A stretch of DNA of 64,000 nucleotides, from the NCBI GenBank assembly GCA_017443895.1, contig JAFSXU010000034.1, forward strand, positions 124,001-188,000, written 5' to 3'. The position numbers and the translations under genes are program-made. Each line of letters begins with the position of its first letter. The stretch's first letter is position 1. Positions 47,737-53,882 of this stretch are shown one piece after another. The notes beneath the pieces are model-generated. The model was given only the letters and a program-made list of their open reading frames with translations, was not told where the DNA came from and ran no database searches. Source of the stretch: Clostridia bacterium. GTDB lineage: Bacteria > Bacillota > Clostridia > UBA1381.

Positions 47737-47781
47737 AAAAAAAGAAATGGCATTGAGCGACTTGCTACAAAACCATTTCTT
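47737..47781 (-). terminator. terminator of the surface-protein operon
   Basis: AAGAAATGG (47742-47750) pairs with CCATTTCTT (47773-47781), then a run of T on the minus strand, 20 bases after the stop of the last operon gene. Confidence 0.85.
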
Positions 47782-47800: not shown

Positions 47801-48265
47801 TTAATTTTTCTCACCGGGATCTATCAGTACAGTTTTTGTCTCATTATCCCAGCTAACCTGCATACCAAACGCCTCTGATACGGCACGAACAGGTACAAGC
47901 GTACGATCTCCAATTATGAGCGGCGCTGTATCCAGCTCTGTTTTTGTTACGGTATCGGTTGAGAAATCATTTACAGCCATAACATACTTGCCAATCTGGA
48001 ACAGGGCGCACTTTGCCTCCCTTGTGGCAAATATCATTTGGTCGTCAGGCACCCATTCTACCTCGGCTCCGAGAGCCTCGAATATTTTTCGCATGGGTAC
48101 CATGGTCCTGTCGTTTATTATTTGCGGCTGTACATCAAATTCCACCTGTTCATTCCCTACATATACGGAAATTCCATCGGTGGCATACGCCACCGGCGAA
48201 ATTCCCAAAAAGAGAACGAAAAAAACTAATAAGCATTTCTTCATACGATTACACATACACATCAT
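47801..48265 (-). CDS. secreted copper-amine-oxidase N-domain (stalk) protein
   Basis: About 154 residues. Signal peptide (KKCLLVFFVLFLGISPVAYA) followed by one copy of the copper amine oxidase-like N-terminal domain (PF07833 type), recognisable by NDRTMVPMRKIFEALGAEVEWV and GDRTLVPVRAVSEAFGMQVSWD. In Firmicutes this domain occurs in surface and wall-associated proteins and carries no oxidase activity. The ATG at 48265 overlaps the preceding peptide stop (TGATG), so translation is probably coupled; an ATG at 48244 would give a more classical signal peptide. Last gene of the five-gene operon. Confidence 0.85.
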   Translation of the reverse strand: MMCMCNRMKKCLLVFFVLFLGISPVAYATDGISVYVGNEQVEFDVQPQIINDRTMVPMRKIFEALGAEVEWVPDDQMIFATREAKCALFQIGKYVMAVNDFSTDTVTKTELDTAPLIIGDRTLVPVRAVSEAFGMQVSWDNETKTVLIDPGEKN

Positions 48266-48414
48266 CACTCAAACAATGTAGAATTGTAATTTGTACTTCC
48301 TGCAGATGCGGTTGTATCTTTTATAAATCTTGGATCTGCGGCTGTGCTTACGCAGATAATAGGCTCTGCCTCGATTACCTCAATAACAGCTCTTTCATAC
48401 TTTATTGTTTCCAT
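48265..48414 (-). CDS. 49-residue peptide B, paralogue of peptide A
   Basis: Short gene with a strong ribosome site: GGAGGG lies 7 bases before the ATG. The product begins METIKYERAVIEVIEAEPII and ends STNYNSTLFE. Its first 25 residues align with those of the peptide at 50105-50281 (Y-x-R-A-x2-EVI, then II and S), while the rest is unrelated and rich in Ser, Thr, Ala and Asn. No signal peptide or membrane segment. It is 25 bases after the secreted-protein stop and overlaps the next gene. Function unknown; a conserved leader with a variable tail is one reading. Confidence 0.78.
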   Translation of the reverse strand: METIKYERAVIEVIEAEPIICVSTAADPRFIKDTTASAGSTNYNSTLFE

Positions 48415-48439
48415 ATTATTTCCCTCCGTTTTCAGCTTT

Positions 48440-50077
48440 TTAATCTTCAGCTGTTAAATTTGCAGATGTGTAGTTCTTATATTGATTTACCGAGCCTGCC
48501 TTCATTGCTGCTGACCAACCAGTCACATTATCTCTTGTTATAAATGATTTTGCATAAAAAGTTGTTCCAACCATTGCTGTAGGTATCTTCATTAAATCAG
48601 CAGAGAATGTGTCACCATACTTAGCTATGCCGGTAGTATCTGAATAATATTTTGCAGCTTTGTTAGTGGTGATACTGTTATCAAAGTATGCATTGTCAAG
48701 ATATCCATTAGTCACAATCCATGTACCGTATGCTTCAATTGGCTCATTGTCCTTATATGTTGAGATAAATCTGATATTTCCATATCCGTCATTATCTATA
48801 TATGCGTCAACATCTGTAACCTCTACACGACTTGTTACAGCCTCAAGAGTTGAGAAATGTGAAATTGTAAGTTGACATGTGCCGCCATCAGCATCACCGG
48901 TATATGTATACTGCTTATCACCACTGCCTATTGTGTACTTGTCAATAAGTGTACCCTCATCTGTTGCGTGGATAATATATAAAGGCTCTGCCGTTACAGG
49001 GATAGTAACTGCAATCTCAGCATTTTGCTTTAACTGGTCGTTAGTAATTGCAACCTCTTTGTCCTCATGTCCTACACAGGTGATTTTTGCATATGGAGTA
49101 AGCTGGAACTTCTCATTGCTGTTTGCAGTGTTTTCAATTGCTTCAGTTTTTGCAAATATATCAACATTTACAACCGTTTCCGCACCTGCGACTGCTTCTA
49201 TATTATTCTCTACAATATAATCATTGATAATCTTTGTTTTCTCTGTAGCAATAATGCTGTCCTTAATACCCTCGACAGTAAGACCTGTAACACCCTCAGC
49301 CTGTGTTTCTTCTACAGTTGCATCAAGTGTACCAACCTGTACGGTTTCTTCTGTGCTTGTACCTGTTTTTGTATAAAGAACATAATCACCTATTTCATGA
49401 CAAATTGTTCTGTCTCTGTCCTCGAACATTACAAGCTGTACCTTGACATACGAGTCAAGTGGTAAATCATCATCGACAACACCGCACTTGAATACCTTTA
49501 CATTGTTTACAACCTCTTCATATGTAAGGTTAGAGCTAACCGCATTACCGGTTGCCAAACCTATAACCTGCATAAGATAATATTCAGTTGGTTTTGAATC
49601 TATCGCATCTTTCCCTGCTAACTGTGCAAGTTTTGAAACTCTAAACCCAACATCACCGTAAGTACCATAGTTACCTACAAGCATAAGCTCATCACCTGAC
49701 ATTGTGCCTGTCGGTGTGCATAATGTGATTCTGAAATCACAAATCCAGTCACCGTAAGTAGCAAGTTCTGCTTGCTTTAATGCATTACCTTCCGGTGTGT
49801 CAGGGTAGTCTGTTGCAAATGTAACAGCCTTGTTCATGGCGTATTCCCCACCGTCTATGCCTGTAAAAGCACTGTAATCCGGGTTAAGGTCAACATTTAA
49901 GTCTGCACCGTATAATTCCGTTACTGTTGCGCTTGGCAAGCTTTGCGTTTGTGTTGTTTGCTCCTCTGATGTTTGTGGCTCTGTTACATCATCGTCTGCA
50001 AAGACTGCAAGCTGTGCAGATGCCACCGTCATAATTGCTGCGAGTGTAAGAGCTACACCCTTGAATAGTTTTTTCAT
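48440..50077 (-). CDS. secreted protein sharing a module with the Hint protein
   Basis: 545 residues with a clear signal peptide (KGVALTLAAIMTVASAQLAVFA, cut near 27), then a Thr/Gln-rich linker, a beta-rich middle that I do not recognise, and a C-terminal module (about 430-540) with GYGNIRFISTYKD, GTWIVTNGYLD, FSADLMKIPTA and TTFYAKSFITRD. The same module opens the 50309-53608 protein. No sortase motif, SLH or dockerin domain was seen. GGAGG precedes the ATG. It lies 27 bases after peptide A and 25 bases before peptide B in a tight operon. Confidence 0.82.
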   Translation of the reverse strand: MKKLFKGVALTLAAIMTVASAQLAVFADDDVTEPQTSEEQTTQTQSLPSATVTELYGADLNVDLNPDYSAFTGIDGGEYAMNKAVTFATDYPDTPEGNALKQAELATYGDWICDFRITLCTPTGTMSGDELMLVGNYGTYGDVGFRVSKLAQLAGKDAIDSKPTEYYLMQVIGLATGNAVSSNLTYEEVVNNVKVFKCGVVDDDLPLDSYVKVQLVMFEDRDRTICHEIGDYVLYTKTGTSTEETVQVGTLDATVEETQAEGVTGLTVEGIKDSIIATEKTKIINDYIVENNIEAVAGAETVVNVDIFAKTEAIENTANSNEKFQLTPYAKITCVGHEDKEVAITNDQLKQNAEIAVTIPVTAEPLYIIHATDEGTLIDKYTIGSGDKQYTYTGDADGGTCQLTISHFSTLEAVTSRVEVTDVDAYIDNDGYGNIRFISTYKDNEPIEAYGTWIVTNGYLDNAYFDNSITTNKAAKYYSDTTGIAKYGDTFSADLMKIPTAMVGTTFYAKSFITRDNVTGWSAAMKAGSVNQYKNYTSANLTAED

Positions 50078-50104
50078 GTTTTTATATCCTCCTTAAAATA
50101 TTAC

Positions 50105-50281
50105 TTATTCATTTCCGGTACCTGTACTCGTATCTATATTCGCATCTGCGCCCGACCACTGCTGAGCATCATACTCTGTAGCTCCTGCCGTCGGGTCGCC
50201 AATGCCAAGTACAAAACCGCTTGTGTATATTATATTATCCTGAAAATCTATAACTTCCATTTCAGCCCTGATATAGTTCAT
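50105..50281 (-). CDS. 58-residue peptide A
   Basis: Begins MNYIRAEMEVIDFQDNIIYT and ends with an acidic, Gly/Thr/Ser-rich tail (GADANIDTSTGTGNE). AGGGGG lies 10 bases before the ATG at 50281; an in-frame TTG three codons earlier touches that site and is excluded. No signal peptide. The N-terminal motif is shared with peptide B (48265-48414). It sits between two genes for large exported proteins with 27-base gaps on both sides. No modifying enzyme is in the operon. Function unknown. Confidence 0.78.
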   Translation of the reverse strand: MNYIRAEMEVIDFQDNIIYTSGFVLGIGDPTAGATEYDAQQWSGADANIDTSTGTGNE

Positions 50282-50308
50282 TGTTATCAATCCCCCTTTT
50301 AGTCACGA

Positions 50309-53300
50309 TTAGTCCAATGTTCTTCTTGAATTAGTGTCCATAAATACACCTATCTGCTCAATAATATCATCATATGTTATTAAGCCTTTACCAACAAGGA
50401 CTTTTAAATAAGGGCCATTGAACGCACAAAACTCCTCATGTGATACATAATCGGATAAATCCTCATATTCATATAAGCCATATTTTGCAATATCCAACAT
50501 CATACTTTGAGCATCATATTTCATATCATCGCCTATTGCAAAATAATCATACCAACCCGGTACAGGCGGTGGAGTTACAGTTAATATACCGTTTGCTATA
50601 CAGTTATTGTGGAAAGCTGTGAGCAATGTATAACTATGTACACCCTCTTCTATAATATCATAGTCTACCAGCTCAACTGTTTTATTCTCAATACCGTCGG
50701 TTTTAATAAATGTATGTCCGATATATGAATCAACATTGTCTTTATTGATATAGATATAATTTTTCTCATTTACATCATAAAGTCCATGCTCATATACTAT
50801 TGTTAAATCCGAATTATCTGAGAATTTAAGCTTAATAGTATCAAGCCCCGTAAATCCATCGTCCATAAGCAATGACGGCTGAGAAACTGTATATTCACCC
50901 TTGAAGAAATCCCATACAAGTAGCTCATCATCAAATGTTAAATCCTCAATAGGCTTTTGACTTCCGTCTGCAAGAGTTATCAGCGTTCCCTCTGCAAGAC
51001 AGCTACCGCTACCACCACCGCTACTACTACCACTAAATGTGCTATACGATACAGACGGATTGGAATTTTTCTGTAATCCTGACCAAGTATGCTCAAATTT
51101 TAAAGTCTTACCTGCTGCGGTAAATTCATATTCTAGCTTTGGAGATCTTGGAGTACTACCACTTCCTACTAAACCACTGGATGATTTCGGTCCAAAATAG
51201 AGTTTGCTGTTATACACAAACGGTGCGCCATTGTCGCCACTCTTAAATTCCTTCATATTTGTAATCTTAAGCGTGAAATCGTTACATGTATACTCCCAAT
51301 AATTATAATCACCATTAGCTTTTCCAGAAGTTGTAGGTGTAAGATCTGACAAACCCTTAGTTACATAATTGCCAGCTGATTTAGAATAATACTTTATACT
51401 TAAACCTTCCAAAGCTGGAACAGCATGATTATAGTCACTTCCACTTGTCACCCTGAGCGCAGTCCCATAATTTTGTGATACTAATACAGGCGGGTCAATC
51501 GACTCTTGTGATACTGATATGGTTAATGGGTATTCATATTCAATATTTTGTTGTACGGCATCTCCATCTTTATCATAATACTTAGTATCATAAAACTTCA
51601 ATGTATAATTGTAATCTCCAATATCACTGAACACCGCCGATTGCCCTATGGCTATAGTGCCATTATAAATGGTATATGGTATTTCTTCACCGTATTTCAT
51701 TATTTTCAATTTCGATGAATCCAGTGTATAACTACCGCTTACAGGCAGTCTAATCTGAAGTTTTCGCACAAAAATGCTACCGTCATAGTATTCTGTATAA
51801 ATACGGTCTTCACCGCTTTCATCTGTAAACACTGTTTTTGGTACAATGTCGCCAAATTTATTCGGAGTATAGACAGGCTCTGTTTTAAGTTCCTCTATTG
51901 TTCCGTTTGCATTCGTGTATGAATACACCAGTCCACTATACCATGCATACGGAACATCTTGCTTTTCTACCCTCTTGTCAACTATACTTGCATCTCCCTC
52001 AATAAATACAAATCCTGCATTTATACAAGTTTTATCATCTATTGTATGCTGATACTGTTTAAGCCCCAACGCAGTACTTAACGGGCTCTTAACTCTTGAA
52101 TCCTGCACATACTGCAAATATTCTGAATTTACCCAGTTATACTGCCTTAATGTCCCTTCAATAGTTATCACAGTATTTCCCGTTATACTTGTAACACCTA
52201 AACCTAGCCTTGTCTGCGTTGTATCGTTTACATTAGCTTTTGTTGGAACTTGTATGGTCGTCACATCTTTAAGCAATAAAGTATTTGCACCATCTGCTTG
52301 AATATTTGCAGCTGCACCACCATTTATTGTTGAATTTATTATCTGCTGATCTACTCCATTCGCATAGACTGCAGTACGACCGCCGGAAATATACGAATTT
52401 ATAATCTTACTGCTACCATTCATTGCAACAGCATTTATCATATTGTAATATCTACCATCACCGTCGCCTGTATTCAAATTTTCAGTTTTATTGCTATCGT
52501 ATAAAATTGAATGCGAAAAATTAGGGCAGATAACCTGAACATTATCAAGTACTCCATTGTCTAATTCAATAAAACCATTATATCTATACTTTGAAACCGA
52601 ATCGCTTGAACATGTCATCTTAAATCCATTACCGTAAATAGCATAGCCGTTACTTACTTTAACGCTACTAAATCCAACATCATCAAGCAATACTACATTA
52701 TTGCTTGTGGCACTCATTGCGTAGGAGGTTGCGTTTATTGCGTCTACCACTTCAAGAAGGAGTGTGCACTTATACTGTGTTGCGGCAGAGTCTTTTATTG
52801 CCACTTCAACAACACCTGTGCCGGTAAACTGAATTGTGTCGCTCAATGTCTTTTGGGATAGAGTTGTTTCTTCTGTGGTATTATTTACGCCGGCGTTACC
52901 TGCTTTATTGGTAATTTTTACATCTATGCCTAACGGTGTGCCATTTGCTGTAAAGAGCGAGCTTAACGCAACCGCATTGGCATTACCTACACGGTAGAGG
53001 TATTTATCTGTATTTTCAAACTTCTTTTCAAATGTAACAAATGATTTATCTACATCAGCTTTTGCTTCTTCAGTCGTGTTTGAGTTTGTCTTATTTGTAC
53101 TGTCATAATATTTAGGTTTATTTGCCTTGTCTTCCGAAGATGCAGAATAATCTTTGGTATTCTCACTATTATTTACATTTTCGCTTGCAAGAGGTGCTTG
53201 TACATACTTATCTGCATTATTACTATCTTTATAAACAATATAGGACTTTGCATAAAACTCCAAATTAAGCAAATTTGCAGGGATATTTAAAATGTCTGCG

Positions 53301-53608
53301 GTAAATTTAAAACTTGTTTTACCACTAACTTTATCATCAGTCGAGACCTTATCGTTTTCAATTTCTACTATATTATCTGCATCCCAGCCGTTAAAAATGC
53401 TTTTAGGTACTACCCATGTACCTATTCTATCCACTGTTTTTTCTCCATCTAAAGTAACCTCTGTTATAAAACGGAGGTTTCCTTTACCGTCCTTTATATA
53501 GCTGTCACGCTGTACTATATTTACGCTATCTGCAAATGATGCGGATTGCAGCATCAAAAGAACGCAGAGAAACACCGCTACAGCGCCAATAGATTTTAAA
53601 GCTCTCAT
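50309..53608 (-). CDS. large surface protein with beta-helix and C-terminal Hint domain
   Basis: About 1099 residues. Signal peptide (IGAVAVFLCVLLMLQSASFA). Residues about 25-135 hold the module also found in the 48440-50077 protein (GNLRFITEV, GTWVVPKSIF, FTADILNIPA, EFYAKSYIVY). A Ser/Asn-rich linker follows, then a right-handed beta-helix (KIINSYISGGRTAVYANG, QIINSTINGG; about 290-440), Ig-like beta domains, a Gly/Ser linker and a Hint domain from Cys870: CLAEGTLITLADGSQKPIED, the TxxH-like IVYEH, and the end FHNNCIANGILT. About 90 more residues follow. Hint domains cleave or ligate their own chain. ATG 53608 follows AGGAG; an upstream GTG is excluded. Confidence 0.85.
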   Translation of the reverse strand: MRALKSIGAVAVFLCVLLMLQSASFADSVNIVQRDSYIKDGKGNLRFITEVTLDGEKTVDRIGTWVVPKSIFNGWDADNIVEIENDKVSTDDKVSGKTSFKFTADILNIPANLLNLEFYAKSYIVYKDSNNADKYVQAPLASENVNNSENTKDYSASSEDKANKPKYYDSTNKTNSNTTEEAKADVDKSFVTFEKKFENTDKYLYRVGNANAVALSSLFTANGTPLGIDVKITNKAGNAGVNNTTEETTLSQKTLSDTIQFTGTGVVEVAIKDSAATQYKCTLLLEVVDAINATSYAMSATSNNVVLLDDVGFSSVKVSNGYAIYGNGFKMTCSSDSVSKYRYNGFIELDNGVLDNVQVICPNFSHSILYDSNKTENLNTGDGDGRYYNMINAVAMNGSSKIINSYISGGRTAVYANGVDQQIINSTINGGAAANIQADGANTLLLKDVTTIQVPTKANVNDTTQTRLGLGVTSITGNTVITIEGTLRQYNWVNSEYLQYVQDSRVKSPLSTALGLKQYQHTIDDKTCINAGFVFIEGDASIVDKRVEKQDVPYAWYSGLVYSYTNANGTIEELKTEPVYTPNKFGDIVPKTVFTDESGEDRIYTEYYDGSIFVRKLQIRLPVSGSYTLDSSKLKIMKYGEEIPYTIYNGTIAIGQSAVFSDIGDYNYTLKFYDTKYYDKDGDAVQQNIEYEYPLTISVSQESIDPPVLVSQNYGTALRVTSGSDYNHAVPALEGLSIKYYSKSAGNYVTKGLSDLTPTTSGKANGDYNYWEYTCNDFTLKITNMKEFKSGDNGAPFVYNSKLYFGPKSSSGLVGSGSTPRSPKLEYEFTAAGKTLKFEHTWSGLQKNSNPSVSYSTFSGSSSGGGSGSCLAEGTLITLADGSQKPIEDLTFDDELLVWDFFKGEYTVSQPSLLMDDGFTGLDTIKLKFSDNSDLTIVYEHGLYDVNEKNYIYINKDNVDSYIGHTFIKTDGIENKTVELVDYDIIEEGVHSYTLLTAFHNNCIANGILTVTPPPVPGWYDYFAIGDDMKYDAQSMMLDIAKYGLYEYEDLSDYVSHEEFCAFNGPYLKVLVGKGLITYDDIIEQIGVFMDTNSRRTLD

Positions 53609-53659
53609 TTTTTGCACACTCCTACCGAAAAATTGCACATTTAGCCTACTATCGATTAC

Positions 53660-53688
53660 ATTTTAACATTTTTAGATTTTATATTCAA
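53660..53688 (-). promoter_or_regulatory. promoter of the surface-protein operon
   Basis: Minus-strand TTGAAT (53683-53688), 17-base spacer, TAAAAT (53660-53665), 52 bases before the ATG at 53608. Confidence 0.72.
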
Positions 53689-53689
53689 T

Positions 53690-53748
53690 TTGTGCAATAT
53701 ACAAAAAAAAAAAAAACTTTTTCTGATTTTTTTGTATAGATTGCACAA
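53690..53748. promoter_or_regulatory. paired TTGTGCAA motifs with a 14-base homopolymer between
   Basis: TTGTGCAA (53690-53697) abuts the -35; its inverse TTGCACAA is at 53741-53748. Between them is A14 (53703-53716). The octamer also occurs twice upstream of the secreted esterase. The tract could vary in length by slippage and alter regulator spacing. The remaining gap to 53882 shows no gene. Confidence 0.5.
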
Positions 53749-53882
53749 ATAGGACATTGTTTAAATTTTTTGCTACACAATATGTTGTATGTCTAATACA
53801 AACGGCACGCAAAAGTGAGTTATAAAACCAAAAAAACAGGCTGTTGCGGGTAAATTTGGGTTTATATTGAAATTAAACCGAC

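Follow-up and report, generated by a model that had tools for sequence, protein, structure and literature searches.

The closest described relatives of the peptides treated here are the linear polyphosphorylated peptides (LPPs; Nat Commun 2026), a class of ribosomally synthesized and post-translationally modified peptides (RiPPs) whose lpp cluster in Paenibacillus alginolyticus encodes the set LppK, LppB, LppS, LppN and LppD (PMC13381572). As far as the accessible text of that paper goes, the LPP leader reads YxxPxVLxHQxIxFETxxS and is cut by an enzyme similar to signal peptidase I (SpI), the phosphates are carried by Ser3 of the core, and Tyr(-16) and Pro(-13) are needed for binding to the RiPP recognition element (RRE); the P-13A exchange weakened binding by LppB, in which D70, matching Q79 of PbaB1, selects the leader Tyr (PMC13381572). 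The same text describes the LPPs as patchily distributed, links them to conflict-type dynamics and gives their biological role as unknown; it also lists a YxxPx[LIV] leader, an RRE, an HprK kinase and an NTP-transferase for the paeninodin-type lasso clusters (PMC13381572). In this work, we compare with these systems a five-gene cluster on the minus strand of a Clostridia bacterium (UBA1381 lineage), at positions 47,801 to 53,608 of a window that comprises the whole stretch of DNA analysed (64,000 nucleotides; assembly GCA_017443895.1, contig JAFSXU010000034.1, positions 124,001 to 188,000). The cluster encodes two large secreted proteins, each followed by a short peptide (A and B), and a final protein with a copper amine oxidase N-terminal (CuAO-N) domain. 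We think it probable that peptides A and B are LPP-like RiPP precursors that are matured in trans, each of them made together with a surface protein.

Set against the LPPs, as they appear in the accessible text, this genome shows the same kind of YxxPx[VI] leader, an HprK-like kinase, a discrete RRE, an SpI peptidase of the archaeal/SipW type, an NTP-transferase and an MsbA-like exporter. In both cases there is no macrolactam route, a Ser follows shortly after the leader and the loci lie near polysaccharide genes (for the LPP clusters, in Bacilli). The differences concern layout and leader: one LPP cluster holds one to three precursors, whereas about 33 are scattered here, each behind a secreted-protein gene; the machinery here is in two loci; and the leader lacks HQxIxFET, its Pro being often Ala in the A/B type.

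Other known systems offer partial parallels. In the case of the prochlorosins, a single ProcM machinery serves dozens of dispersed ProcA precursors, which share their leaders and vary in their cores. The present system is alike in combining one machinery with many dispersed precursors that have common leaders, but it has no lanthionine enzyme, its cores are free of Cys and each precursor is tied to a secreted protein. In PEP-CTERM/exosortase and type IX secretion system (T9SS) sorting, many secreted proteins that are otherwise unrelated end in the same kind of domain, which suggests that one system mounts them all; here, in contrast, no link to an exosortase or to T9SS is apparent, and the partner is a separate small peptide.

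Secreted-protein/peptide pairs across the genome

The initial annotation regarded the Hint-type protein, the CuAO-N "stalk" protein and the peptides as one unit. The genome points instead to a smaller one, formed by one secreted protein and one peptide, which occurs about 33 times and of which the five-gene cluster holds two. A search profile built from eight peptides gave 35 matches in the own assembly (77 contigs), with E-values down to 3e-22 that are affected, for such short peptides, by the inclusion of own-genome members in the profile; about 33 loci result once four contig-end fragments or continuations are joined. Their genes encode 48–68 residues, a Shine-Dalgarno-like site stands at all 35 peptides, and at each of the 31 loci with enough upstream DNA the peptide gene begins -8 to +32 nt after the end of an open reading frame (ORF) of the same strand. 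All 28 full-length partners have a signal peptide according to a simple heuristic, as against 36 of 203 among the remaining genes of these loci (18%; binomial p ~1e-21), base rates being taken from the fetched loci. Among relatives, 34 of 40 peptides lie directly behind a long ORF, against 5.6% by chance; the exceptions include the two peptides inside a RiPP cluster of genome G030, one locus at a contig edge and two where the gap is slightly larger. Co-occurrence of peptides and large proteins elsewhere had been named beforehand in the initial annotation as the point that would decide against a chance cluster, and the peptides do recur with module-bearing secreted proteins.

The domains of the partners are diverse, comprising BspA-type leucine-rich repeats (LRR), Ig-like Big_2 and Big_5, F5/8-type carbohydrate-binding, laminin-G-like, Listeria-Bacteroides repeat, GLUG, beta-helix and lectin-type domains. 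A link to surface proteins, as initially proposed, is likely. The Hint domain is not the core of the unit, since a Hint or CuAO domain is absent from most partners and two Hint proteins of genome G016 have no adjoining peptide. A plain LPXTG motif, SLH motif or hydrophobic tail that could act as an anchor was found in 0 of 31 partners. Many of the pairs lie at contig ends (contigs 13, 17, 19, 38, 49, 52, 69 and 76 of the own genome), where the assembly was probably broken by near-identical repeats of the pair genes, so that the count of about 33 may differ from the real copy number.

Covariation was studied on 29 pairs by comparing the peptide cores with the last 130 residues of the partners. 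Core similarity tracks that of the C-terminal part (Mantel Pearson 0.79, Spearman 0.22, both p 3e-4, with a few near-duplicates included in the test). For the remainder of the partner, Spearman was -0.07 (not significant) and Pearson 0.31, the latter value being probably carried by near-duplicates. Pairs with a C-domain similarity of 0.4–0.5 usually have an N-part similarity near 0.03–0.1; thus, the C-terminal domain and the peptide behave as one cassette that has been grafted onto secreted proteins with no relation to each other. Protein 1, the large protein encoded first in the cluster, is the positional exception, with its module at the N-terminus. Profile comparison chains four groups of C-domains (g1-g4 97%, g4-g2 83%, g2-g5 90%); a single superfamily for every partner C-terminus was rejected, as groups g3 and g6 did not link.

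Such grafting of module and peptide, besides the several copies that are repeats at contig ends, also fits a selfish or recombining C-terminal cassette in which the peptide product is unimportant. We find this highly improbable, given the ribosome-binding sites at every one of the 35 peptides, the conservation of the leaders while the cores strongly diverge, and the synteny kept across species. Another possibility is that the peptides are LPP-like RiPPs acting alone, as signals or as antagonists of other bacteria, and that cotranscription only couples expression. It has in its favour the variable cores and, in the accessible text on the LPPs, their patchy distribution and the conflict-type dynamics that the authors propose (PMC13381572). 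However, the pairing is nearly one-to-one, the core type follows the C-domain type of the partner, and some 33 separate adhesin-linked copies would be odd for a secreted antagonist, so we regard solo action as unlikely.

Leader, core and putative maturation machinery

The conserved part of the peptides follows the pattern Y-x-x-P/A-x-[IVM]-E...F..E[DN]-[IV]-[IL]-x-x-S. Its Tyr is invariant in 33 peptides and Pro is present in most of them, whereas A, B and a few more have Ala. The leader fits the RRE-binding YxxPx[V/I] motif of RiPP leaders; the full LPP consensus was not matched, the second half being FxxED[IL]L[TC]xS. A Ser is near-invariant at Tyr+17 to +19. The cores, of 23–44 residues, are Cys-free and acidic (149 D/E vs 34 K/R) and end in E, N, D or Q in 28 of 29 cases. 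Near the core end, a [DN][YW]xx[ILM] patch, a motif picked after seeing the data, is enriched (14 of 55 vs 1.9 in shuffles).

The peptides have no signal peptide, which, with the one-to-one pairing and the covariation, would suit unmodified cytoplasmic escorts or chaperones of the secreted partner, close to the initial idea of chaperones for a self-processing fibre. In our opinion this is quite improbable: what is conserved in the peptides is a leader of the RRE type, the same peptides are found elsewhere inside clusters of kinase, RRE, peptidase and exporter genes, and the partners have ordinary Sec signals. Rather than chaperones, the peptides resemble RiPP precursors whose leader binds an RRE.

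All five LPP functions are encoded in the own genome, split over two distant loci. On contig 38, family matches give the order HprK-RRE-SpI-NTP-transferase, in a stretch with nucleotide-sugar genes; on contig 60 the order is CuAO-N-HprK-RRE-MsbA-like ABC, and the CuAO-N protein encoded there resembles that of the last gene of the five-gene cluster. The contig-60 RRE has an Asp aligned to Gln79 of PbaB1, the position of D70 in LppB, and the same Asp is seen by eye in the contig-38 RRE. At the level of sequence, both the recognition motif in the leader and the presence of the machinery are well supported.

In five other genomes, the peptide stands next to genes of the machinery, always with an HprK-like kinase among them. 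Genome G443 (another family of the same phylum) has the row secreted protein, peptide, HprK, RRE, SpI peptidase, MsbA-like ABC and NTP-transferase, and G330, which falls in the same class but in a different family, encodes in this order a secreted protein, a peptide, a lipoprotein-like product, HprK, RRE and SpI. In G041, a secreted protein and a peptide are followed by an SLH protein, HprK, RRE and ABC, and the contig has an NTP-transferase match farther on; in G010 the clustering is partial (secreted protein, two peptides, membrane protein, HprK, SpI-like). On contig 6 of G030 (L113 479-3398), two Cys-containing peptides are flanked by HprK and a PqqD-type RRE, with a radical SAM/SPASM-like gene next to them, and the leader may thus be common to a different, radical-SAM RiPP. 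In G443 a radical SAM-like gene adjoins a Cys-rich peptide of 104 residues (contig 21, L169 14344-16173), with the LPP-like cluster a few kb away, and is probably a second, different RiPP locus.

Of the genomes of the family, 32 of 70 contained peptides, compared with 1 of 25 from elsewhere in the order and 2 of 397 others sampled across the phylum, where the sensitivity of this first look is lower. In a subset of 37 genomes of the own family, a PqqD-type RRE is present in 17 of 18 genomes with peptides vs 10 of 19 without them (Fisher p 0.005); among family genomes at least 90% complete, RRE and NTP-transferase occur together in 10 of 10 with peptides vs 3 of 7 without. A sister family commonly has trios of RRE, SpI-like and MsbA-like ABC genes next to divergent SLH-protein genes (L122-L151, e.g. 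L130 and L146), at which no peptide of this profile was found.

The YxxPx[LIV] leader, the RRE, the HprK kinase and the NTP-transferase are common to paeninodin-type clusters, as given in the accessible source (PMC13381572), and the phosphorylated lasso peptides of this type, with YxxP or WxxP leaders, could suggest that A and B are lasso precursors. Here, however, the leader residue is Tyr and not Trp, and a lasso-type cyclase is missing. The best genome match to the B2 protease (PF13471) reaches 10.6 bits, below the cut-off; no dedicated macrolactam synthetase was found in the genome, the sole full-length Asn-synthetase homolog starting with MCGISG like the housekeeping AsnB; and the peptides have no fixed ring acceptor at core positions 7–9. 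As far as the assembly goes, lasso peptides are therefore excluded, and we consider this reading scarcely credible.

Several points weigh against LPP-like precursors matured in trans. The precursors are not adjacent to the machinery in this genome; between the contig-38 genes and the nearest peptide the distance is about 13 kb. Beyond YxxPx[VI], the leader departs from the LPP consensus, with no HQ and no FETxxS, and A and B carry Ala where LPP leaders carry Pro, an exchange that, by analogy, may weaken RRE binding; the RRE-adjacent peptides of G030 also have Ala at this position. Moreover, RRE/ABC clusters exist in genomes without a profile-detected peptide, and the substrates there may therefore be divergent. 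Finally, the covariation of core and domain could come from duplication of the cassette and not from binding.

The five-gene cluster

The features of the cluster are collected in Table 1. The initial annotation had described five minus-strand genes, their order, short gaps and one overlap, and all these ORFs are present; the intergenic gaps are of 27, 27 and 25 nt, and the genes of peptide B and the CuAO-N protein overlap in TGATG. The promoter and the terminator that it placed at the two ends were likewise recovered, and the gene 5' of the cluster ends in its own terminator (53918-53888). All five genes are found in the same order on contig 132 of the rumen metagenome-assembled genome RUG12844 (G001, uncultured Ruminococcus sp.), with identities of 39% for the Hint protein and 61% for the secreted protein; this synteny therefore bears out the view of one conserved unit and not of chance neighbours. 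The alignment supports the proposed kinship of peptides A and B.

Table 1. Features in and around the five-gene cluster (window coordinates).
Feature	Position	Strand	Remarks
Hint-type secreted protein 1, 1099 aa	50309..53608	-	signal peptide; module residues 27-151; Hint-like region from Cys870; C-terminal tail of ~80 aa
Shared module of protein 1	53156..53530	-	at the N-terminus, unlike the other copies in the genome, which are C-terminal
Peptide A, 58 aa, probable LPP-like RiPP precursor	50105..50281	-	leader YIRAEMEVIDFQDNIIYTS; core GFVLG...GTGNE; profile matches and alignment
Secreted protein 2, 545 aa	48440..50077	-	C-terminal shared module, residues 418-536
Shared module of protein 2	48470..48829	-	predicted 7-strand beta-sandwich, pLDDT 79
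Peptide B, 49 aa, probable LPP-like RiPP precursor	48265..48414	-	leader YERAVIEVIEAEPIICVS; core TAADP...STLFE
CuAO-N secreted protein, 154 aa	47801..48265	-	Cu_amine_oxidN1 domain, PF07833 E 2e-34
Promoter-like site TTGAAT-17-TAAAAT, extended -10	53660..53688	-	9/12 with TG extension
Intrinsic terminator hairpin, then T7	47741..47781	-	fold -17.5 kcal/mol, z -4.8
Inverted repeat with TGTGCAA/TTGCACA, candidate operator	53681..53757	.	putative function

The core of the promoter-like site, AAATGTTAAAATG, is also found 5' of the RUG12844 ortholog. Upstream of the operon (53612-53757), there are four TGTGCAA/TTGCACA sites in 140 nt, two of which form an 81% inverted repeat around an A/T tract; RUG12844 keeps one such site besides the promoter core. 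The repeat is a candidate operator for some regulator. A promoter motif common to all pairs was rejected, the TGTGCAA sites being missing upstream of 23 of 25 other pairs.

The module claimed to be common to the two large proteins was confirmed, both of them (P0001 at residues 27-151, P0003 at 418-536) matching its profile with E about 1e-41; for the copy in protein 1, profile A3 gave E 1.6e-40. Nine copies of this module are present in the genome, and a peptide gene follows all nine. A fold search with the module model returned only generic Ig-like sandwiches (TM-score ~0.45, none with E <1e-3). Sequence searches of Pfam, NCBIfam, PHROGs and PDB gave no name for the large proteins or the peptides. 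For the last gene, the CuAO-N domain assignment stands and "stalk" is only a name.

The initial label of a Hint-domain beta-helix protein is weaker than stated there, "Hint" being based on motifs. Like the Hint/hedgehog proteins and the Hint proteins of polymorphic toxins, protein 1 has Hint-like blocks, including a conserved block A with a nucleophilic N-terminal Cys, GSCLAEGTLITLADG / GSCFATGTLINLADG. It differs from them in that the HN-C/S/T junction for splicing or C-cleavage is not present in the Hint region, which has NGILTVTP / DDILSLTP instead, and no Pfam or NCBIfam model matches this region or a beta-helix. The AlphaFold model of the Hint region is poor (pLDDT 40) and unusable. No toxin domain was found in protein 1. 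A polymorphic toxin with an immunity peptide was dropped as an explanation, since proteins other than Hint also have the peptide behind them and some Hint proteins stand without one. Contig 113 of G016 (L016 1-9016) encodes two tandem large Hint-type proteins with the C-terminal tail of protein 1; judged from such comparisons, the Hint region and the tail form a unit with a separate history of its own.

Proposed mechanism and meaning

We propose that one mRNA would give the secreted protein and its peptide, whose leader would be bound through Tyr-x-x-Pro/Ala by the discrete PqqD-like RRE encoded elsewhere. The HprK-like kinase would then phosphorylate the near-invariant Ser past the leader, and the NTP-transferase may add a further group. 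The SpI-type peptidase would take off the leader, a cut after the Ile/Leu pair making the conserved Ser residue 3, and the MsbA-like ABC pump would export the acidic, Cys-free core of about 25–45 residues. Homology to the studied LPP system is the basis for proposing that the RRE binds the leader, that the kinase acts on the conserved Ser and that cleavage and export follow. Outside the cell, the core would meet the beta-sandwich domain of its partner, at the C-terminus or, in protein 1, at the N-terminus, and its most likely role there would be that of holding or mounting the partner on surface polysaccharide. Docking, too, is inferred, and surface attachment is the least certain step; we find it the most attractive because the partners have no obvious anchors and the contig-38 machinery lies near nucleotide-sugar genes, like the LPP clusters in Bacilli. 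We put forward only tentatively, as a possibility about which we have more doubt than confidence, that one kinase/RRE/exporter machine supplies modified peptides by the dozen and that each of these serves a single secreted protein outside the cell as its own anchor or activator, joining it to surface polysaccharide through the C-terminal beta-sandwich.

The LPP chemistry class has been known since 2026; the dispersed layout of one protein and one peptide was not found described in the accessible text of the LPP paper or in a literature search with subscription papers outside its scope. The presence of about 33 scattered LPP-like precursors, each behind a secreted protein of lectin, LRR, Ig or beta-helix type, points to a role with surface proteins and not as free antibiotics. 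As the core type follows the C-domain type of the partner, a direct binding test is possible. In our opinion, the pairing of such peptides with secreted partners that have no plain anchors may represent a new protein-mounting route in gut and rumen Clostridia.

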